Under the pieces are notes generated by a model. It was not told the DNA's origin. It searched no databases and worked only from the letters and a program-made list of their open reading frames with translations. A program made the translations under genes and the position numbers. 64,000 bases of DNA from Verrucomicrobiia bacterium (GTDB lineage Bacteria; Verrucomicrobiota; Verrucomicrobiia; Verrucomicrobiales; Akkermansiaceae). The stretch lies in NCBI GenBank assembly GCA_947462875.1, contig CANHQJ010000001.1:124001-188000 (forward strand), in the 5' to 3' direction. Shown in pieces: positions 1 to 10,711 of the stretch (its first letter is position 1; the number at the start of each line of letters is the position of its first letter).

Positions 1-4
1 GGAT

Positions 5-580
5 GTGCAGAGTTTTGGTAAACCGGATTTCAGGCAATTCATCGATAACACGTGGGAGATTCTCGCTGAGACGAATGGGGACTTTCAGGAGGCGGGGAAT
101 TATTCAATTCGGACCTATCGCGAGGCACTGTGTCGCATGGAGAGGTTTTTTTGTGAGCTCGATCCTGACGTGATTTGGCGTCGTCATGGGGATGAGCCTG
201 ACGATGAGGCCTTCCGGGAGATGGATGCATGCAGTCGCGAGAATTTGCGGGGTGCGCTGGAGTATTTGAAGAAATACATTGCGGTGCTTTCGGTCATGGA
301 GGCGCTTACGGGCGGCGATGCCCCTGTGGCCGCTTTTGTGGGAGATGGGGGCGTGATGGCGACGCAGGATGTTTCGGCATGGCATGGGAGCGGGCGTCGA
401 TTCGATTGGGCGCTCTTGCCTTTGGTGGCATCGGTGAATGAGATGTTAGGCAGTGAGGGCGCGGCGGAATTGAGGGCAATCGCGCATGAGGTGCATGCGG
501 GGCATCGGGATTGGCGCTGGTTTTTGGAGGGTGTGCCGAAAGAGGTGGTATGCCATGTGGAGAAGGTGATGGCGCGTTGA
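5..580 (+). CDS. hypothetical protein, possibly 5'-truncated by the window
   Basis: The 191-residue reading frame starts at a GTG close to the window edge and stays open upstream, so the true start may lie outside. It is acidic, has no signal peptide or membrane segment, and looks largely helical (for example around residues 75-105), as expected of a soluble cytoplasmic protein. I recognise no family. It is convergent with the cytochrome operon that ends at 642. Coding status rests on the length, the uninterrupted frame and a plausible amino-acid composition. No function is proposed. Confidence 0.55.
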   Translation: MQSFGKPDFRQFIDNTWEILAETNGDFQEAGNYSIRTYREALCRMERFFCELDPDVIWRRHGDEPDDEAFREMDACSRENLRGALEYLKKYIAVLSVMEALTGGDAPVAAFVGDGGVMATQDVSAWHGSGRRFDWALLPLVASVNEMLGSEGAAELRAIAHEVHAGHRDWRWFLEGVPKEVVCHVEKVMAR

Positions 581-641
581 TGCGCTAGGAACGCATCGAA
601 GAGTTGGTTCGCTGGCGAGTGTTTGCAGCGTCGAGCCGCGA

Positions 642-2324
642 TCACTCCGCAGTCTTTTTCGGCGCTGGCGTCAGTGGCTCAAAGGCACTGCTCTTGTGGT
701 AGCTGTGGCAGGTGGTGCAGTCGTGGCGGATGCCGCCTTTCGGGCTGTGGCAGTCGATGCACGACTTGATCGAGGGGAGATTGAGGTCGCTGGTGCGCTC
801 GCTGTCCATGACCTTGTGGCAGTCGATGCAAGAGAGGCCTTTTTGGTGGAGCGAGTGATCGAATTTTCCGAGCGTCATCCAGCGGGTGGGGACGCCCACG
901 TTTTTGATCAAGGGCGTGGCATTGGCGGCTTCGGCAGGCTTCACTTCGTGGCAGACGGCGCATCCCGTGAAGGCGGCGCGTTGGCCATCGGCGAACTTGG
1001 TGCCTTTGTCGGAAAAGAACACCATGTGCTCGAGGTCTTCGCCGGTTTTGTATTGGCTCTCGATGCTGGTGCGTTTGTCGGTGATGTAGCGGATGAGGTC
1101 ATCGCGGCGGGTGATGCCCTCGACATCGCGACCGAATTCTTCATATTGGATGTTGAGGCTGCGGAGAAAGGCGCGGACGTAGTAGGGGTCGCCGTGCGGC
1201 AGGGCGAGGCCGGGCGTTTTTTCATCGAACTGGAGCGTGTGGCATTCCTTGCAGTGCTCGGCGTAGGTGATGGGCAACTGGTATTCGCCGCGGGAGTCCT
1301 GCTTGTGGCATTCGATGCAATCCATTTTGCGCGGGATGTTTCCTTTGCCCATGTGGACGGCGTGATTGAACTTGAGGGTGTTGGTGTCCTTGATGCCGTC
1401 GCGGATCTGGCGGAACTCGGGATGGTCTTGATAAAACGAGGTAATGACATCGGTGTATCCTTCGGCGGGGCGCTGACGCGGTTGGATTTTTGCGGTGTTT
1501 CGCTGCGTGGCATCGATGGGCGGATGGGGATGCGGGCTGGTGCCGAGCTGGCGGGATTTTGCCATCAGTTCGGCCGAGCCGTGGCAGGCGATGCAGTAGG
1601 CATTGTCGGCGGGTGGCATGACGCCGGCGTGTTCCTTGTGGCATTCGTGACAGGCGAAATGCAAAGGCATGTTTTGCTGGTGCAGGTCTTTGCCTTGATG
1701 GCAGGTCAGGCATTTCTGATCCATGGCACCGGATGCGATCGGATCGCGACGGAGGAGTTCCGCGGGCGATAGACCTTTTTGCGAAGCGGCAAAGGCCTTG
1801 CTGTGCCAGGAGTCGGCGCCGTCCTTCGCGCCATCGTGGCAGGCGGCGCAGTGGCTGGCTTCGCCGGACAGTTGATGGTGAACGCGGGCGAAATGTTCGC
1901 TGGCGTGGATGTTGGATACGGGGCCGGGGTTGATGAAGTCATCGCGCAGGCTTTGGCTGATGCCGACGAAAAGCAGCAGCATGGTGGCGATGCAAGTGAA
2001 GACGATGGCGCGCTGGCGCTTGGAGCGGAGGGTGCGACGCGGTTGGCATTGGGCAATGGCGTTGCAGCATGTGCCATCGGGGAAGGGGCCGTTCTCGCAT
2101 TTGCCGCCGCCGGATTTCGGGCGCGTGCAGGCCCAGTGGCCTTTGGTTTCGCCGGGCTTGGTGACGAGTCGTGGCGAGCACTCGTAGGTGGCGCGGCACT
2201 CGCCTTTGGGCGACGGACCGATGCGGCAGGGGCAACCTTCACACGTATGGCCGCATTCCCAATTCACATTGGGGCGGATGTATTCGTGGGAGGCAAACTC
2301 CGGTGATGGACGGTCTTGGTTCAT
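642..2324 (-). CDS. decaheme cytochrome c with cytoplasmic Cys-rich N-terminal domain
   Basis: This 560-residue protein has three parts. Residues 20-95 hold 11 cysteines in a compact region that begins with a CGHTCEGCPC cluster. A basic stretch (RRTLRSKRQR) precedes a transmembrane helix at about 106-124, which by the positive-inside rule puts the Cys-rich part in the cytoplasm. The rest, presumably periplasmic, carries ten CxxCH heme-binding motifs (CAACH, CLTCH, CHECH, CIACH, CIECH, CKECH, CAVCH, CIDCH twice, CTTCH). It is the last gene of a four-gene operon, and its ATG overlaps the stop of the membrane gene by four bases. It probably passes electrons to or from a periplasmic partner; the terminal partner is unknown. 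The Cys-rich domain may bind a metal or an iron-sulfur cluster, but I do not recognise its family. Confidence 0.9.
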   Translation of the reverse strand: MNQDRPSPEFASHEYIRPNVNWECGHTCEGCPCRIGPSPKGECRATYECSPRLVTKPGETKGHWACTRPKSGGGKCENGPFPDGTCCNAIAQCQPRRTLRSKRQRAIVFTCIATMLLLFVGISQSLRDDFINPGPVSNIHASEHFARVHHQLSGEASHCAACHDGAKDGADSWHSKAFAASQKGLSPAELLRRDPIASGAMDQKCLTCHQGKDLHQQNMPLHFACHECHKEHAGVMPPADNAYCIACHGSAELMAKSRQLGTSPHPHPPIDATQRNTAKIQPRQRPAEGYTDVITSFYQDHPEFRQIRDGIKDTNTLKFNHAVHMGKGNIPRKMDCIECHKQDSRGEYQLPITYAEHCKECHTLQFDEKTPGLALPHGDPYYVRAFLRSLNIQYEEFGRDVEGITRRDDLIRYITDKRTSIESQYKTGEDLEHMVFFSDKGTKFADGQRAAFTGCAVCHEVKPAEAANATPLIKNVGVPTRWMTLGKFDHSLHQKGLSCIDCHKVMDSERTSDLNLPSIKSCIDCHSPKGGIRHDCTTCHSYHKSSAFEPLTPAPKKTAE

Positions 2325-3157
2325 GGAGCGGATCCGGAAAAGGAATAGACGACGATGATGTGCATCACGCTGAGAATGAGCAGAGAGTAACTGAGAGGAA
2401 TGTGTGCGAACAGCCAGACGCGGAGGCTGACTTGCAAGGCGTATTGGTAGTCGAGCAAGTGCTTTTGCTCCACGAGATCAGCGAGCTTGTTCAGGAGGTC
2501 CTGTTCGTTTTTCTTGGCGTAGCGCATCATCTCATCGAACTGCGATTGGTGCGATGCCTGTGCGGTGCGCGAGCGTTGCAGGTGAGAGAGGAAATTTTCA
2601 TGACGGGTGAAAAACAGGCCGAGCTTCTTGGTATAGAAATCAGCGATGACGGGCGATGTCTGTCCGTCCGCACCTGTGAGGATCAGTGCTTCCGCTTCCT
2701 TGCGCAGGTGATTGCGGACATGCGGGATGCGCTCGAAAGGTGTCTCAAAGCCCGCCACGGTCAGCCTTTTGGGAAACTCACGACTGATCCACAGGCCGAT
2801 GATTCCGGTGACAAATACGATGGTGAAACATGTGGCGATGATTTGATTCAGCCATCCGTGCGGCCATGAAAAACCACTGTGAACGAGAAAGATCGCGCCG
2901 GATATCAGGCCGACATAGACGTGAAGTTGCAGCCAGAAAGTAGAGCTGCCAAAGCGAAGAAAGGGAATTTTTTTGCGGAGATTGAAAAACGTGAGAAACA
3001 GCATAACACCAAAGAGCAACCAACCTGTGAGATAGGGGTGACGCGGGTAGTGGGGAAAGGTATTGGCATAGGCGACGAACAGCGCCACCACCAGAAGGGT
3101 GGTCAAGAGCAGTCCGACGATGCGTCGCCTGACGATTTCTATTTTCTTTTTAGCCAC
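2321..3157 (-). CDS. membrane protein of the electron-transfer operon, possibly b-heme binding
   Basis: I place the start at a GTG at 3157 (protein begins VAKKKIEIVRRR), giving 278 residues. A longer frame to 3262 would overlap the upstream gene by over 120 bases and begins with an unlikely His/Pro-rich stretch. About five hydrophobic helices are visible: two near the N-terminus, two around the LQLHVYVG and HSGFSWPHGW segments, and one at the C-terminus. Histidines in these helices (LQLHVYVG, FLVHSGF, FAHIPLSY, SVMHIIV) could bind heme b, as in cytochrome b561-like or PepSY-type proteins. A soluble, charged central part of about 110 residues separates the helix groups. It overlaps both neighbours slightly, indicating translational coupling. 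It likely links the cytosolic reductase proteins to the decaheme cytochrome. Confidence 0.8.
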   Translation of the reverse strand: MAKKKIEIVRRRIVGLLLTTLLVVALFVAYANTFPHYPRHPYLTGWLLFGVMLFLTFFNLRKKIPFLRFGSSTFWLQLHVYVGLISGAIFLVHSGFSWPHGWLNQIIATCFTIVFVTGIIGLWISREFPKRLTVAGFETPFERIPHVRNHLRKEAEALILTGADGQTSPVIADFYTKKLGLFFTRHENFLSHLQRSRTAQASHQSQFDEMMRYAKKNEQDLLNKLADLVEQKHLLDYQYALQVSLRVWLFAHIPLSYSLLILSVMHIIVVYSFSGSAP

Positions 3158-4866
3158 TGGGTGAGAGGGGTGATGCGGGTGAGGTTGGTGCGGCTGAGAG
3201 CATCGTGCGGGCAGGCATTCACGCAGGCGGGGCCGCTGGTTTGCTCGACACAGAAGTCGCACTTGGTGGCCTTGAGGATGGGTTGGAAATCCTCGTCCAC
3301 GAGGAACTGGCCTTTTTTCGAGCGCACTTCGACCATGCGGATGGAGTCATACGGGCAGTTCGCGGCGCAGGCACCGCAGCCGATGCAGGTATCCGGATTG
3401 ATCACCACCTCACCGCCAAAGCTGGTGCGGTGAATCGCGCCGGTGGGACAGCCGATCATGCAAACGGGATCGATGCAGTGCATGCAGGCATTGGCGATCA
3501 TCAGGTTATCGATGATGGGGCCGTGGCGCAGGAAGCGGGGATTGCCATCGTGGGTGGAGGCGCAGGCGCGCACGCAGTCATCGCAGCGGGTGCAGCGATC
3601 CATGTCGATGACCATCGATTTGGTGCCGTTGAGAAAGCGATGTTCCGCCATGAATTCCATCAGGCCGGCGGAGGGTGCTTCATCGGTTTCATCCGAATCC
3701 GCGATGGTCGGTTCGGGCAGGCTGACTTTTCCGAGTTGCTGTTCCGCCCACTTGCGGTTCGCGAATTTTTCCAATGCGGCGGTGGGGATGAAAATCAGGT
3801 GTGCGTAGCCGAGCGAACGAAGCGTGTGGGTGGACTGGAGGCTTTGTTCGGTGTTTTTCCAATGCTGCGCGATTTCCTCAAATCCGAAAACACTGCCTGC
3901 GCCGATGTAGTTCAGCGTGCGTTCGCCACCGCCGTACTTGTGGCTGACGCGGCAGAAGCCCGCGCGGATCATGTGGATGCCGTTGAGGTAATCGCCCTCT
4001 TTGACAATGATGGGCTCGTGCGCGGAGGTGGAGGCGTTTCCGTCCTTTGCCAGGCGTTTGTAGGCACCGGACCAGTTGTAATCTCCGAAGGTCTCCAGTT
4101 GCGCGGCATCGCATAGCTCGCGGTAGCTGTGTTCGTCGAGATGACTGAAGAGCGGATGATTGCTGAGAAAGGATTTGAGCGAGTTTTCCCGATAGATTTT
4201 GTCGATCCGCGCCTTGAGGGCGGGATCGTATTTCATGATGTCGCGCAGGCCTTCCCAGCTGAATTCCAACAAGCGGGTATTCGGCGATGAGGCGACGACC
4301 GTGGCCGTTCGCGGCATGCGGCTGAGCGCGGAAATTTCGCCAAACATGCTGCCCGCTCCGAGTGTTGCGGTTTGCGATCCCGAGACGACGCGTGGGTAAT
4401 CCTGCAAGTACACCGAGCCGCTCTCCGTATTGTATGAATCGTTCGAGCGACGAGATTTTTTGTTCCAGACTTCGGGTTCCCTATTGTTGTTCCAGAGCTG
4501 TGCGAAGCGGGCGATGAAACCTTTTTTCACGCTGGGCGCACGACCTAACAAACGCGGATCGATCTCGGGGCGAATCACCACGTCCACCTCGCCATCGAGC
4601 ACGAGATAGGCGGAGGTGCCGTAGTCGTCCTTGCGGATGACGATTTCACCCGTGTCAAAAGTGCGCACGGCGGTATCGAAGCGCAAAATCTCCCGCAAGG
4701 GAGTCCCCGAAGGAAAACGCGAGGGATCCATGCTGGCAAAGGGCTCGTAGCCTAACAGCATATCGACGATCTCCTCGGTCATGTTCGCATCGAGCTGTTG
4801 CTCCCAGCGATGCGGTCGCTCCGCTTGGCGGACCAGTGTCGAGAGGTTGGTGTCGGATTTTGCCAT
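3139..4866 (-). CDS. cyclic-nucleotide-binding domain / 4Fe-4S ferredoxin fusion
   Basis: The 575-residue protein has two CRP-like cNMP-binding domains followed by a polyferredoxin. The first (about 60-210, with an insertion near 100-165) keeps a canonical phosphate-binding cassette: FGEISAL at 175-181 and the RTATV arginine at 186. The second (about 285-370) has FGFEE but lacks the arginine, so it probably does not bind nucleotide. The ferredoxin part (420-565) has Cys groups CTRCDDCVRAC, CMHCIDPVCMIGC, CIGCGACAANC and CDFC...CVNAC, enough for about four 4Fe-4S clusters. There is no DNA-binding helix-turn-helix, so it is not a transcription factor. It lies between the flavin reductase and the membrane protein and probably relays electrons between them, perhaps gated by cAMP or a related nucleotide (inference). 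Confidence 0.9.
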   Translation of the reverse strand: MAKSDTNLSTLVRQAERPHRWEQQLDANMTEEIVDMLLGYEPFASMDPSRFPSGTPLREILRFDTAVRTFDTGEIVIRKDDYGTSAYLVLDGEVDVVIRPEIDPRLLGRAPSVKKGFIARFAQLWNNNREPEVWNKKSRRSNDSYNTESGSVYLQDYPRVVSGSQTATLGAGSMFGEISALSRMPRTATVVASSPNTRLLEFSWEGLRDIMKYDPALKARIDKIYRENSLKSFLSNHPLFSHLDEHSYRELCDAAQLETFGDYNWSGAYKRLAKDGNASTSAHEPIIVKEGDYLNGIHMIRAGFCRVSHKYGGGERTLNYIGAGSVFGFEEIAQHWKNTEQSLQSTHTLRSLGYAHLIFIPTAALEKFANRKWAEQQLGKVSLPEPTIADSDETDEAPSAGLMEFMAEHRFLNGTKSMVIDMDRCTRCDDCVRACASTHDGNPRFLRHGPIIDNLMIANACMHCIDPVCMIGCPTGAIHRTSFGGEVVINPDTCIGCGACAANCPYDSIRMVEVRSKKGQFLVDEDFQPILKATKCDFCVEQTSGPACVNACPHDALSRTNLTRITPLTQWLKRK

Positions 4867-4876
4867 GGTGGTTGTT

Positions 4877-6163
4877 TCAGGCGTCGATCACGATGTTTCC
4901 TGCGGGGCGGCAGATGCAGGTCAGGCAGCTTCCTTCATCGACTTCCGTCCCCGGTTCCATATCGTAATTCACGTTGCCTTTTTTGATCGCGACGAGGCAG
5001 GAACCGCAACTGCCGGCACCGCAACTGTAATCGATGGGGATGCCATTTTTCTCGGCGAAGGCGTGCAAATTCGCGCACTCGGGATCCCAGGGAACTTTTT
5101 TGCCACTGCGGGAAAACTCCACTTCGATGGCGGACACAGCGCCGTCCGCGGGTGCTGCGGCCCCATCTTTCGGACCTGCTTTGACCGTGGCTGGACCGAA
5201 GGCCTCGAACTTCACGTCTTTTTTCGGCACGCCCCATTCGTAAAGTCCGGCGACGAGAGAATCCATGAATGGTCCCGGACCGCAGAGGTAATATTCGTAA
5301 TTGCTCGATGGAAGCACTTCCTTCATCAGGTCGATGGTGACGCGGCTGTGGTGATTGTAGTGCTCGCCCTTGACATCGGTCTCGCTCGGGCGGCTGTAAC
5401 AGATGTGCAGCCGCATGTTCGGATTATTTTTCTGCAGCTCGATCACTTCCTCGCGGAACATGTGATCGACCCCGCTGCGGCAGCCGAAGAAGAAATAAAT
5501 TTCGCGAGGGTCATTGAGGTGAGTCAGCACCCGCGCCATCGCGAGCATGGGCGTGATGCCGATGCCGCCGGAAATCAACACGACAGGGCGCTCGACCTCG
5601 ACATCGAGATAGAATTTCCCGGAAGGCGCTTTGACATTCAGGATATCTCCTTCTTTCACATCATCGCAGAAGTAGGTCGATACCACACCGGGCTTGCCGT
5701 CATCGCGGATGTAACGTTTGATCGTCACTCGATAATGCTCATCGGTGAGCGCTCCATCCGAGAGCGAGTAGCAACGGATTTGCGCTTTGGGCAAACCGGG
5801 TGGCTGGACCTCGAAGGTGAGGTATTGACCGGGCTTGAAAGCGGGGAGTGGTCTGCCATTGTGCGGTTTCAGGTAAAACGAATACGTGTCGGCGCATTCC
5901 TCCACCTTGCGGGCGACCGTGAATTTCCGGAAGCTATTCCACGCGACTTCCGGAGCGGCTTGCACTTTCGCATTGAGAATCTCAAGCCGTTTTCCGAGAG
6001 TCTCGAGTTCGAGGCGGCTGCGCTTCGATTCGAACGCGTAGCGACGGGTGGCGGCCAGCCACTGGGTGCACAAGTAACCGAGCATCAGCGCGATTCCGCC
6101 CATTCCCACAATGAGAAATGGATCCGAAAACGCAGGCGAGCGAAGTAGTTCTACCAGATTCAC
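4877..6163 (-). CDS. FAD/NAD(P)H oxidoreductase with C-terminal 2Fe-2S ferredoxin domain
   Basis: The 428-residue protein resembles NqrF and phthalate-dioxygenase-reductase type enzymes. An N-terminal transmembrane anchor (about 14-35) is followed by an FAD domain with the RCYSLSD motif, an NAD(P)-binding domain with GGIGITPMLAMA, and a C-terminal plant-type 2Fe-2S domain with CGAGSCGSC and a later CLTCICRP cysteine pair. The domain order (anchor, FAD, NAD, ferredoxin) is the hybrid-cluster-protein-reductase order rather than the NqrF order, in which the ferredoxin comes first. It is the first gene of the operon, 10 bases before the cNMP-ferredoxin gene. It likely takes electrons from NAD(P)H in the cytoplasm and feeds the downstream carriers. 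I see no convincing promoter upstream. Confidence 0.9.
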   Translation of the reverse strand: MNLVELLRSPAFSDPFLIVGMGGIALMLGYLCTQWLAATRRYAFESKRSRLELETLGKRLEILNAKVQAAPEVAWNSFRKFTVARKVEECADTYSFYLKPHNGRPLPAFKPGQYLTFEVQPPGLPKAQIRCYSLSDGALTDEHYRVTIKRYIRDDGKPGVVSTYFCDDVKEGDILNVKAPSGKFYLDVEVERPVVLISGGIGITPMLAMARVLTHLNDPREIYFFFGCRSGVDHMFREEVIELQKNNPNMRLHICYSRPSETDVKGEHYNHHSRVTIDLMKEVLPSSNYEYYLCGPGPFMDSLVAGLYEWGVPKKDVKFEAFGPATVKAGPKDGAAAPADGAVSAIEVEFSRSGKKVPWDPECANLHAFAEKNGIPIDYSCGAGSCGSCLVAIKKGNVNYDMEPGTEVDEGSCLTCICRPAGNIVIDA

Positions 6164-6408
6164 GAGCGAGCAGGAAAATGATTGTTGTTAGTGCGAACGA
6201 ACGCAAACGCACAGGCGACGAACATGATGATCATTGAATGAAAAAACCAAGATTGCTCCGAGATGTCAAGGACATAACTGTGAAGCTTGTATTGCGTCGT
6301 GAGTCATTTTCAGTTCCTATGATACAAGAACAGGGGGAAGTTCTTATCTGGCAAATATTTCGCACAGGAAAGCTTGCCAAATGGGCCGCGAGTGCGTCAG
6401 AGTGCGGC

Positions 6409-7233
6409 ATGAATTTCACGGAATTTTCCTCGCGCTATCTGGTAAAGCATGGGGCAAAGATACAGCTGGGTCTGACCGATCCCGACGAGAAAACCTGGGC
6501 CCCGCCGGAGCAGAGACACCTGGGGGAGAGAAAATTAGACAAGCTCCGGGATGAGATTCAGTCCTTGCAGAAAGTGCTGTATGCGCAGGGGAAACACCGC
6601 ATTCTGATCATTCTGCAGGCCATGGACACCGGCGGCAAGGATGGCTGTGTGAAGCATGTTTTTTCGCGGGTGGATCCGCAGGGCATTACGGTCAAGGCTT
6701 TCAAAAAACCGAGCCACGAAGAACTCGCGCATGATTTCCTGTGGCGGGTGCATCCGCATGTGCCGGGCAACGGACAGATCGTGATTTTCAATCGCAGCCA
6801 TTACGAGGACATCATCGCCGTGCGGGTCAAAAAACTGCGGCCGGATGATGTTTGGAAAAAACGCTATCGTCACATCCTTGATTTCGAAAAAATGCTGGCG
6901 GACGAGGGAACCACGATTCTCAAGTTCTTCCTGCACATCTCTCCCGATGAGCAAAAAGCCCGGCTTGAGTCGCGCCTGCGCCAGCCGGAAAAACACTGGA
7001 AGCTCTTTCCGGAGGATTTGCAGGATCGGGTTCTGTGGAATGACTTCATGGCGGCATATGATGAGCTTTTGTCGAAGACCTCCTCCGCACACGCGCCGTG
7101 GTATGTGGTGCCAGCGAACCGCAAGTGGTATCGCAATTTGGTAGTGGCGCAGATCGTGGTCGATCGCCTGCGGGCCCTGCACATGGAATATCCGAAGCCG
7201 ATCTGGGATCCGAGCTCGATCGTGATCGAGTGA
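6409..7233 (+). CDS. ppk2: polyphosphate kinase 2 family protein
   Basis: PPK2 enzymes transfer phosphate between polyphosphate and nucleotides. Visible motifs are the Walker A-like AMDTGGKDG, the NRSHYEDI block (normally DRSHYED) and the lid-region RLRQPEKHWK. The N-terminal segment SSRYLVKHGAKIQLG matches the family start, so I use the ATG at 6409 (274 residues, normal length). The frame is open back to an ATG at 6238, but the extra 57 residues do not look like PPK2. No clear ribosome-binding site is seen at either start. It is divergent from the electron-transfer operon; the roughly 245 bases between them hold no other gene. A Ppx/GppA-type phosphatase at 32271-33785 could act on the same polymer. 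Confidence 0.92.
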   Translation: MNFTEFSSRYLVKHGAKIQLGLTDPDEKTWAPPEQRHLGERKLDKLRDEIQSLQKVLYAQGKHRILIILQAMDTGGKDGCVKHVFSRVDPQGITVKAFKKPSHEELAHDFLWRVHPHVPGNGQIVIFNRSHYEDIIAVRVKKLRPDDVWKKRYRHILDFEKMLADEGTTILKFFLHISPDEQKARLESRLRQPEKHWKLFPEDLQDRVLWNDFMAAYDELLSKTSSAHAPWYVVPANRKWYRNLVVAQIVVDRLRALHMEYPKPIWDPSSIVIE

Positions 7234-7280
7234 TCGCCCCGCGGACATTTTGTGAAAATTGACTCGTCGGACGCGCGGAA

Positions 7281-8375
7281 ATGCGCATGATGGGCCGCGT
7301 GCAGATCAAAGCCTTGTCCTTATTGCAGGAGCTCACCGAAGCTCATTCCGTGCCGGGTCATGAAGATGAAGTGCGGGCGATTTTTGTGGATGAACTCGAA
7401 AGCCATGGCGAGCTCAGTTGCGATGGCAGCGGCTCGGTGTTTTGCGAGCGTGGCGAAGGCCCGCGCGTGATGGTGGCAGGGCACATGGATGAGGTGGGGT
7501 TCCTGGTGCAAAACATCACGCCCGATGGCTTTTTGCAATTTGTCGCCGTCGGCGGTTGGTGGGAGCACTCGCTGTTATCGCAGCGCGTGGAGGTTCGCAC
7601 ACGGGGAGGGGACAAGATCCTTGGCGTCGTCGCCTCGCGCCCTCCGCATTTTTTGCCAGCCTCTCAGCGATCGCAGATCATTCCACTGGATCAGATGTTC
7701 ATCGATGTGGGGGCCTCCTCGCGCGAGGAAGCGGAGCGGGAAATGGGCATCCATCTCGGCGACCCGATCGCGCCCGTGAGCGCCTTCACGCCGATGGCGC
7801 GGGAGGATTATTTTATGGCAAAAGCATTCGATAATCGCGTGGGCATGGCGGCGGCGATCCAGAGCGGGCAGTTGCTGAGTGAGTCATACCACCCGAACCG
7901 CCTCATCCTGGCGGGTACGGTGATGGAAGAGGTGGGCCTGCGCGGTGCGAAAACGGCGGCGCATCATGCGAAGCCGGATGTGGCGATCATTCTGGAAGGT
8001 CCTCCCGCGGATGATACGCCGGGCTTCGCACGCTCCGAGTCCCAGGGCCGTCTCGGCGGCGGGGTGCAGATCCGGTTGTTCGATCCCACCGCCATCACCA
8101 ATCCACGGCTCGCCACGCTGGCGATGCAGGTCGCGCGCGATGAAGACATCGCCCATCAAGTGACCGTGCGCCGCAGTGGCGGCACGGATGCCGGATCCAT
8201 CCACCTCTACGGCTCGGGAGTGCCTTGCATCGTGCTGGGTGTGCCCGCCCGCTACATCCACTCGCACAATTCCATCATCGATATCAACGACTACCTCGCG
8301 ATGGTGGCGCTGACCACGGCGCTCGTTCGCCGATTGGACCAAAGCCATGTGGACGCCTTGACCTCCTATCTCTGA
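7281..8375 (+). CDS. M42 family metallopeptidase (glutamyl aminopeptidase-like)
   Basis: The 364-residue length is typical of the M42 family of cytosolic dinuclear zinc or cobalt aminopeptidases, which often form large tetrahedral complexes. Recognisable motifs are VAGHMDEVGF (metal-binding His and Asp), AFDNRVGM (bridging Asp), VMEEVGLRGA (catalytic and metal Glu), a following EG, SGGTDAGSIH, and the final PARYIHSHN histidine. All the expected catalytic residues appear to be present. It has no signal peptide. The 3' end overlaps the convergent lipoprotein gene by 10 bases. It probably trims peptides from intracellular protein turnover. Confidence 0.93.
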   Translation: MRMMGRVQIKALSLLQELTEAHSVPGHEDEVRAIFVDELESHGELSCDGSGSVFCERGEGPRVMVAGHMDEVGFLVQNITPDGFLQFVAVGGWWEHSLLSQRVEVRTRGGDKILGVVASRPPHFLPASQRSQIIPLDQMFIDVGASSREEAEREMGIHLGDPIAPVSAFTPMAREDYFMAKAFDNRVGMAAAIQSGQLLSESYHPNRLILAGTVMEEVGLRGAKTAAHHAKPDVAIILEGPPADDTPGFARSESQGRLGGGVQIRLFDPTAITNPRLATLAMQVARDEDIAHQVTVRRSGGTDAGSIHLYGSGVPCIVLGVPARYIHSHNSIIDINDYLAMVALTTALVRRLDQSHVDALTSYL

Positions 8376-9524: not shown

Positions 9525-9582
9525 TCTACTTGAGGAAAGAGCGAAATGGGTGCAAGTTCCCAGCGCGCCTGGCGCTAAGCTT

Positions 9583-10119
9583 ATGGAGACGACAGAAATT
9601 TCACCAACGTTCGCCGCATACGATTCCAAGATCGAGGGCAACGTAATCTTCACCCGCGTGGATGCGGCGATGAACTGGATGCGCAAGAACTCGCTGTGGC
9701 CGATGCCCATGGGCCTGGCCTGCTGCGCGATCGAGCTGATGGCGACGGCATCGAGCCGTTTTGACATCTCGCGTTTCGGCATGGAGGTGATGCGATTTTC
9801 CCCGCGCCAGAGCGATGTGATGATCGTGGCCGGCACGGTGACCTATAAAATGGCGCTCGCCGTGAAGCGCGTGTGGGATCAGATGCCGGAGCCGAAATGG
9901 TGCATCGCCATGGGTGCCTGCGCCTCCAGCGGTGGCATGTATCGCAGCTACGCCGTCTTGCAGGGGATCGACAAACTGATTCCCGTGGACGTTTATATTT
10001 CCGGTTGCCCGCCGCGCCCCGAGGCCTTGATCGAGGGCCTGATGAAACTCCAGCGCAAGATCGAGGGCACCTCGGCGATGATGGAGCAGAAAAAGGAATT
10101 GCTGGAAGATCTGGCCTAA
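9583..10119 (+). CDS. nuoB: NADH-quinone oxidoreductase subunit B
   Basis: NuoB carries the N2 4Fe-4S cluster of complex I at the junction with the quinone site. The tandem LACCAIE cysteines (47, 48), GACASSGG (113) and SGCPPRP (142) supply the four ligands. The ATG at 9583 gives 178 residues, normal for the family; a GTG 33 bases upstream is possible. nuoC follows after 25 bases, but nuoA is not upstream and nuoD is not downstream, so this pair is separated from the rest of a complex I operon. Confidence 0.95.
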
Positions 10120-10144
10120 CGTTTTTTCCCAACTGAATCATCTT

Positions 10145-10711
10145 ATGTCTGCCGCCGATATCCAAAGCATCCAGGGGAAATTTTCCAACGCCGTTCTCGA
10201 TCACAAGGAATTCCGTGAGGAGTTCACTGTCACGGTGACGCTGGAATCGCTGCATGCTGTCTTGCAGTTTTGCAAAGAGACCCTGGGCTATGATTTTCTG
10301 ATCGATATCTCCAGCCTCGACCACTTCGGCGACGACCCGCGTTTCGCCATGGTGTATGAGCTGGCGACGGTCGATGACAAAAAGCACCTTCGCGTGAAAG
10401 CACCCGTAGCGGAAGAGGAAAGCGTGCCCTCGGCCTGTGACCTTTGGCTTGCGGCCGATTGGCATGAGCGTGAGGTTTATGACATGATGGGCATTCCCTT
10501 CACCAATCACCCGAATCTCAAACGCATCCTGATGTGGGAGGGCTATCCGTTTTATCCCCTGCGCAAGGATTTCCCGCTCGCGGGTCGGCCCTCGGACATG
10601 CCGGATGTGGCATTCAGTGGCGTGGCTCCGCTGGAAGGCGGTCCCTTTGTCACTTCCTGCGGCACCGATGATGTGGTGCGTCGTGAGCCACGGGCTCGTG
10701 ATCAGAAATAA
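10145..10711 (+). CDS. nuoC: NADH-quinone oxidoreductase subunit C
   Basis: This 188-residue protein matches the 30-kDa subunit of complex I: the family segment around WHEREVYDMMGIPFTNHPNL is followed by RILMWEGYPFYPLRKDFPL. The subunit packs against NuoD at the quinone-reactive module. It is a stand-alone NuoC, not a NuoCD fusion. It follows nuoB, with which it is surely co-transcribed. The next gene is a rhomboid protease, so nuoD and later subunits must be elsewhere on the chromosome if complex I is complete. Confidence 0.95.
   Translation: MSAADIQSIQGKFSNAVLDHKEFREEFTVTVTLESLHAVLQFCKETLGYDFLIDISSLDHFGDDPRFAMVYELATVDDKKHLRVKAPVAEEESVPSACDLWLAADWHEREVYDMMGIPFTNHPNLKRILMWEGYPFYPLRKDFPLAGRPSDMPDVAFSGVAPLEGGPFVTSCGTDDVVRREPRARDQK

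Follow-up and report, generated by a model that had tools for sequence, protein, structure and literature searches.

Can four genes of a verrucomicrobial genome carry electrons from cytoplasmic NAD(P)H to the outside of the cell, and could a cyclic nucleotide control that flow? The question is raised by a minus-strand operon, positions 642-6163 of a 64,000-nucleotide stretch (hereafter the window; contig CANHQJ010000001.1, positions 124001-188000) from a Verrucomicrobiia bacterium of the family Akkermansiaceae. On the contig, the operon occupies 124642-130163. An earlier note on this DNA had proposed an NAD(P)H/flavin adenine dinucleotide (FAD)/2Fe-2S reductase, a polyferredoxin with two cyclic nucleoside monophosphate (cNMP)-binding domains, a membrane protein with possible heme ligands and a decaheme cytochrome c. 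It read them as a route to periplasmic hemes matching no named complex. As judged from gene composition and linkage, the four genes, here called A to D, form a real, conserved and apparently undescribed electron-transfer system. With a probability of roughly 0.6, they encode the inner-membrane part of a cyclic AMP (cAMP)-responsive, quinone-independent conduit from NAD(P)H to the outside. The genes are as follows.

6163-4877, minus strand: gene A, 428 amino acids, membrane-anchored NAD(P)H reductase with FAD, NAD and 2Fe-2S domains.
4866-3139, minus strand: gene B, 575 amino acids, two cNMP-binding-like domains and a ferredoxin module with four 4Fe-4S sites.
3157-2321, minus strand: gene C, 278 amino acids, five-helix membrane protein, predicted diheme cytochrome b.
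2324-642, minus strand: gene D, 560 amino acids, cytoplasmic Cys-rich domain, one transmembrane helix and periplasmic decaheme cytochrome c.

The order of transcription is A, B, C, D. A gap of 10 bp separates A from B; C overlaps B by 19 bp and D by 4 bp, so that four same-strand, overlapping or nearly overlapping genes of the proposed types are indeed present. A 313-residue version of C, starting at GTG 3262 in the open reading frame (ORF) list, was rejected because conservation starts near GTG 3157. Promoter- and terminator-like sites in window positions 1-6600 showed no excess over chance, and a search of the window for CRP-type sites gave none.

The earlier note had made recurrence of the four genes in other genomes the test of its proposal, and they do recur, in several phyla. 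With a B alignment as query, we scanned one genome per species over 84,980 species and kept the best 80 of 455 confirmed relatives; the true spread of the system is wider than these. In 70 of the 80 loci, A, B, C and D stand next to one another. In the other 10, A is divergent nearby (4 loci) or the locus lies at or near a contig end with a partner missing (6 loci). Since the loci were found through B alone, this co-occurrence goes well beyond chance. According to record titles, the loci come from Verrucomicrobiota, Planctomycetota, Alphaproteobacteria (Kordiimonadales, Rhodospirillaceae, Hwanghaeella), SAR324, Candidatus Uabimicrobium and Poribacteria. Metagenome bins are common among them, and certain titles appear to be wrong (e.g., Akkermansia muciniphila, Klebsiella pneumoniae). 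Within the class, 20 of 188 genomes, the window's own counted, have an ortholog that spans most of B, with 44-55% identity (window's own aside) and with C, usually also A and D, adjoining. In the window's family, the other sampled members gave neither a B match over the full length nor a hit to PF00211.

The assignment of A as an NAD(P)H/FAD/2Fe-2S reductase holds, with Pfam matches to three domains following an N-terminal hydropathy peak.

6065-6121, minus strand: transmembrane helix of A.
5609-5923, minus strand: FAD domain of A (FAD_binding_6).
5258-5578, minus strand: NAD domain of A (NAD_binding_1).
4904-5107, minus strand: plant-type 2Fe-2S domain of A (Fer2).

The cluster residues Cys 381, 386, 389 and 416 are kept in 74 of 75 orthologs. 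The nearest NCBIfam models, flavohemoprotein, GbcB and PaaE, all score below their cut-offs. NqrF, from the Na+-translocating NADH:quinone reductase, was rejected as an identity for A, which scores 92.2 bits against a cut-off of 295 and has the domain order FAD-NAD-Fer2 and not Fer2-FAD-NAD.

Protein B matches PF00027 (83 bits) in two regions, as well as several Fer4 families.

4297-4344, minus strand: phosphate-binding cassette of cNMP domain 1 of B, intact, FGEISALSRMPRTATV.
3751-4179, minus strand: cNMP domain 2 of B, cassette degenerate, the canonical position lacking Arg by column counts.
3187-3624, minus strand: four 4Fe-4S sites of B, DmsB/HydN/HycB-like ferredoxin module.

The 16 cluster Cys that form the four sites are invariant in 81 of 81 sequences. 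So are F175, G176, E177, R183 and R186 of cassette 1, across phyla; E177 and R186 are the ribose-binding Glu and the phosphate-binding Arg. Domain 1 hence carries the complete cassette, Glu and Arg included, that marks a cyclic nucleotide receptor, and its region matches chains of PKA RI-alpha and PKG. A functional second cassette was first considered, then rejected on the absent Arg. Both proposed cNMP domains and the four 4Fe-4S sites of the polyferredoxin are there, with an intact binding cassette in domain 1 alone. A plain Crp/Fnr regulator was rejected because the 16 invariant cluster Cys are fused to the cNMP domains and no DNA-binding domain was found in B. HmcB and DsrO were also rejected as identities, B scoring 38.9 bits against a cut-off of 420 and 53 against 200, respectively (NCBIfam).

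In protein C, the heme ligands that had been guessed at are now strongly supported. Its orthologs keep two pairs of His with the H-x13-H spacing of cytochromes b: H79 (80/80) and H93 (80/80), H252 (79/79) and H266 (78/78). The codons of these predicted ligands are listed below.

2921-2923, minus strand: H79 of C.
2879-2881, minus strand: H93 of C.
2402-2404, minus strand: H252 of C.
2360-2362, minus strand: H266 of C.

In an AlphaFold2 model of C (mean predicted local distance difference test score, pLDDT, 89), the pairs stand on long helices 3 and 5. The last helix counts 59 residues, a length that must carry it past the membrane. By sequence and model, C thus has the two bis-His sites on two transmembrane helices of a two-heme cytochrome b, the hemes themselves being predicted. 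Weak family matches were obtained with orthologs of C: DUF4405 in 30 of 38 (best 4.5e-5), Ni_hydr_CYTB in 18 of 38 and Ferric_reduct in 4 of 38. The window's own C has no significant family match, DUF4405 included, and no solved structure matches it by sequence or by fold (fold search, E <= 0.001). Owing to the invariant H-x13-H pairs and the ortholog matches to two-heme families, the prediction of a diheme cytochrome b is well supported.

Protein D contains exactly 10 CXXCH motifs, with matches to Cytochrome_C7 and Cytochrom_c3_2 (Pfam), and all 10 are present in every ortholog not cut by a contig end. The decaheme cytochrome c proposed for D is therefore there, preceded by a cytoplasmic Cys-rich domain that had been overlooked.

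2046-2255, minus strand: Cys-rich domain of D, two repeats C-x8/9-C-x2-GP-x3-G-x-C-x5/6-C-x-P.
1953-2009, minus strand: transmembrane helix of D, hydropathy highest at residue 106, modelled as a helix over residues 99-122.

Within the first 105 residues, Cys 24, 33, 43, 49, 66, 76, 86 and 93 are invariant in 75 of 75 sequences across phyla. No match to this domain was found in Pfam, among PDB sequences or by fold search with a pLDDT 81 model (E <= 0.001), and its sequence points to a new domain. With four Cys in each of its two repeats, the domain could hold two iron-sulfur (Fe-S) clusters or zinc. Because the positively charged RTLRSKRQR precedes the helix, the positive-inside rule places the Cys-rich domain in the cytoplasm and the hemes outside. 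An MtrA/DmsE decaheme protein was rejected as an identity for D, given 29.5 bits against the TIGR03508 cut-off of 192.2 and an uncleaved helix behind a cytoplasmic domain.

In other Verrucomicrobia families, more distant relatives have a three-gene form: both cassettes of its B are intact, its membrane protein is C-like, its decaheme protein lacks the Cys-rich domain, and no reductase gene adjoins it. The core is therefore B-C-D. As the reductase and the Cys-rich domain occur together in the longer form, their distribution suggests that the two work together.

What could bind to domain 1 of B? The single PF00211 hit of the genome (a draft, 97.7% complete) is a cyclase gene 1.4 kb from D, and B is the sole protein of this genome to match PF00027.

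Contig 121203-123263: CHASE2-class III cyclase.

In an alignment, this cyclase keeps the metal-binding Asp pair, the Asn/Arg positions, and the Lys and Asp that we take to specify adenine, as is typical of adenylate cyclases. Because these adenylate-cyclase residues are kept, its product is likely cAMP. A cyclase lies at most 5 kb from the operon in 12 of the 80 loci, where about 0.7 would be expected from the 76 hits found over about 88 Mb of B-carrying genomes, scaled to some 0.81 Mb of flank. Counted over about six apparently separate lineages, this proximity gives a p near 1e-4. In addition, a PF00211 gene is present in all 20 B-carrying genomes of the class and in 104 of the 168 without B (Fisher p = 2e-4). 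Cyclic nucleotide control of the conduit is thus likely on these sequence grounds, and the idea of gating gains independent support because the only PF00211 cyclase found lies just 1.4 kb away from the operon, while PF00027 was found in no protein other than B.

We propose the following route. Electrons would pass from NAD(P)H to the FAD and 2Fe-2S cluster of A, then to the four 4Fe-4S clusters of B, possibly through metal or Fe-S sites in the cytoplasmic Cys-rich domain of D, and from there over the two hemes b of C across the membrane to the ten periplasmic hemes of D. A tetraheme c554-like protein, a probable porin and a giant multiheme cytochrome would lead onward to an extracellular acceptor. 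Such a route would bypass quinones, release protons inside and carry negative charge out, draining the membrane potential. A valve would be needed because the conduit would depolarise the membrane. Domain 1 of B would act as this gate by binding a cyclic nucleotide, most likely cAMP from the neighbouring cyclase, and switching the flow through B. As the genome also encodes three COX1-type proteins, the conduit may serve as an alternative outlet, perhaps under oxygen shortage. That the parts form a complex, the direction of flow, the acceptor, the ligand and the gating of flow by its binding are all points that we infer.

Described extracellular electron transfer draws mainly on the quinol pool, and cyclic nucleotides mostly act on transcription, kinases and channels. 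A direct route from NAD(P)H to the outside with a built-in receptor would be, if true, a ligand-gated respiratory wire. The fullest version of the idea is a widespread respiratory conduit whose cytoplasmic Fe-S wire is itself the nucleotide receptor, a dedicated CHASE2 cyclase making the cAMP that opens or closes the flow directly, without transcription or quinones. We put this version forward tentatively, at somewhat less than even odds. Gating is directly testable in this genome, since a single PF00211 cyclase and a single PF00027 receptor were found there and lie close to each other.

The onward components are encoded in the same island as the operon.

Contig 104857-105939: tetraheme c554-like cytochrome.
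Contig 105975-108434: probable porin, 819 amino acids, no hemes and no Pfam match, barrel judged from sequence alone.
Contig 108437-112315: LVIVD multiheme cytochrome, 1,292 amino acids.
Contig 113710-115407: gene with HbpS-like (heme-degrading) domains, homologs close to the operon in 17 related loci.
Contig 116529-119524: ResB and Cytochrom_C_asm genes (cytochrome c assembly).
Contig 119511-120326: FecR-like gene.
Contig 123351-124580, plus strand: gene of 409 amino acids between the cyclase and the operon, its 3' end at window positions 5-580.

An NHL propeller is also encoded. The operon would be the inner-membrane part of this larger island with its probable porin, which had been overlooked. 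In many relatives, the tetraheme, porin and LVIVD genes directly adjoin the operon. In the form found in Planctomycetota and Alphaproteobacteria, a pentaheme cytochrome and another probable porin replace the porin and the LVIVD cytochrome. The locus count of one flanking ORF cluster was left unused because it mixed tetraheme genes with antisense ORFs of high-GC DNA.

Several points weigh against the cAMP-responsive conduit. Domain 2 of B is degenerate, and cNMP-like domains can bind other ligands or none. In 68 of the 80 loci, no cyclase lies within the flank examined, so that linkage is not universal. Conservation among the linked cyclases is uneven, several of those in Limisphaerales having lost the substrate Lys. 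Neither the enrichment near the operon nor the co-occurrence of cyclase and B is corrected for shared ancestry. Other cyclase classes and strongly diverged cNMP domains escape PF00211 and PF00027, and the genome is a draft. The Fe-S sites in the Cys-rich domain of D are presumed, and zinc may take their place. Finally, in the window's genome the outer-membrane genes lie 12-20 kb from the operon and outside it, and extracellular respiration may be dispensable because the COX1-type genes make oxygen respiration possible.

The first of these points feed the alternative that survives best, in which the conduit works as proposed while the cNMP domains are structural or sense redox state, heme or another ligand, and the cyclase is unrelated. 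The degenerate domain 2, the majority of loci without a cyclase in the flank and the general knowledge that many Crp/Fnr-type domains bind no cyclic nucleotide all agree with it. Against it stands cassette 1, unchanged in all 81 sequences with its phosphate-binding Arg and ribose-binding Glu. The sole PF00211 and PF00027 genes found are neighbours, and cyclases of different architecture (CHASE2, 7TMR-DISM) stand near the operon in separate lineages. We regard this alternative as unlikely.

In another reading, the system feeds a reductase in the periplasm or at the cell surface, with a role such as iron acquisition, heme handling or detoxification, and not bulk extracellular respiration. The island encodes an HbpS-like heme-degrading protein and a cytochrome of the c554 family, the LVIVD cytochrome could itself be an enzyme, and oxygen respiration genes are present in the genome. 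In contrast, many relatives have the probable porin and the multiheme cytochrome of about 1,300 amino acids in linkage with the operon, a pair that looks like an outward conduit, which leaves this use rather doubtful.

Both the low potential of NADH, a strong reductant, and the membrane potential, positive outside, speak for outward flow. Inward flow, from Fe(II), humics or Mn(II) outside to NAD(P)+ or a cytoplasmic reductase, appears improbable. Reducing NAD+ against the membrane potential needs donors below about -0.4 V, and the gene set holds no quinone- or proton-coupled driving subunit, although porin-cytochrome conduits can work both ways and iron oxidisers have related decaheme porin systems (PMC6344600). 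Very improbable is a structural or proton/quinone subunit C in a quinone-linked A-D complex, for which the lack of a significant family match for the window's own C and of a PDB fold match could be cited, against two H-x13-H pairs of invariant His, placed on helices 3 and 5, and the matches of orthologs to two-heme cytochrome families.

The proposal that no named complex has this composition is upheld: none was found in the family libraries, solved structures and literature searched. Close in plan are the transmembrane complexes Tmc and Hmc of sulfate reducers, and DsrMKJOP, which likewise combine, in one operon, an outside multiheme cytochrome c, a membrane subunit and a multi-cluster Fe-S protein for transmembrane electron transfer; DsrM is the diheme b subunit of DsrMKJOP (PMC8076601). 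Like these systems, A-B-C-D has a membrane-attached multiheme cytochrome c, in the form of D with its 10 CXXCH and one transmembrane helix. In contrast to them, electrons would enter from the cytoplasm by way of an NAD(P)H/FAD/2Fe-2S reductase, cNMP domains are fused to the Fe-S protein, and the A-D set has no NrfD-like subunit.

In freshwater Verrucomicrobia, a putative novel porin-multiheme cytochrome system has been proposed for humic-rich lakes, with homologs reported in IMCC26134 and an inner-membrane electron step left unspecified (PMC5615132). That verrucomicrobial cluster, with its octaheme/porin pair, resembles the present island in combining a porin, here a probable one, with multiheme cytochromes; that work mentions no ferredoxin, NADH or cyclic nucleotide domain. 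The IMCC26134 genome carries A-B-C-D. The operon, found in several phyla, would be a candidate for the open inner-membrane step. MtrCAB/CymA and CbcL/ImcH (PMC6295460) also lead from the inner membrane over multiheme cytochromes to a porin. They draw on the quinol pool, whereas no quinol oxidase belongs to the present set, and the probable porin of the island is without a Pfam match.

NADPH oxidases and ferric reductases share with A-B-C-D the NAD(P)H and FAD inside, a pair of hemes b (predicted in C) that two helices bind at H-x13-H spacing, and, on the proposed route, an outward, depolarising flow that needs a gate. The system would work like an NADPH oxidase coupled to a porin-cytochrome conduit. 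Unlike in those enzymes, the flavoprotein and the heme b protein are separate here, with 2Fe-2S and 4Fe-4S clusters as the connection between them, and Ferric_reduct is not matched by the window's C. CRP/FNR, the PKA regulatory subunit and other cNMP receptors have the binding-cassette motif in common with domain 1 of B, but the output of B is a four-cluster ferredoxin module, where those receptors act through DNA binding, a kinase or a channel. The literature searched yielded no cNMP domain in a comparable electron-transfer subunit, an absence that is no proof of novelty, and nothing relevant on cNMP domains with multiheme cytochromes or Fe-S proteins.

Some smaller features of the surroundings may be added. 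The FecR-like gene lies next to the cyclase, and in Limisphaerales loci such a pair is again found alongside the operon. In Planctomycetota, Alphaproteobacteria and SAR324, B is usually preceded by a tetraheme c554-like gene, and the operon is accompanied by the pentaheme gene and a probable porin of 500 amino acids. The 409-residue protein encoded between the cyclase and the operon has no Pfam match, and some of its His/Asp spacing is reminiscent of HD-domain hydrolases. Divergent from the operon, window positions 6238-8375 hold ordinary genes for a PPK2 polyphosphate kinase and an M42 aminopeptidase. Further on, at window positions 9550-10711, reading frames like NuoB and NuoC suggest that a conventional complex I is encoded nearby.

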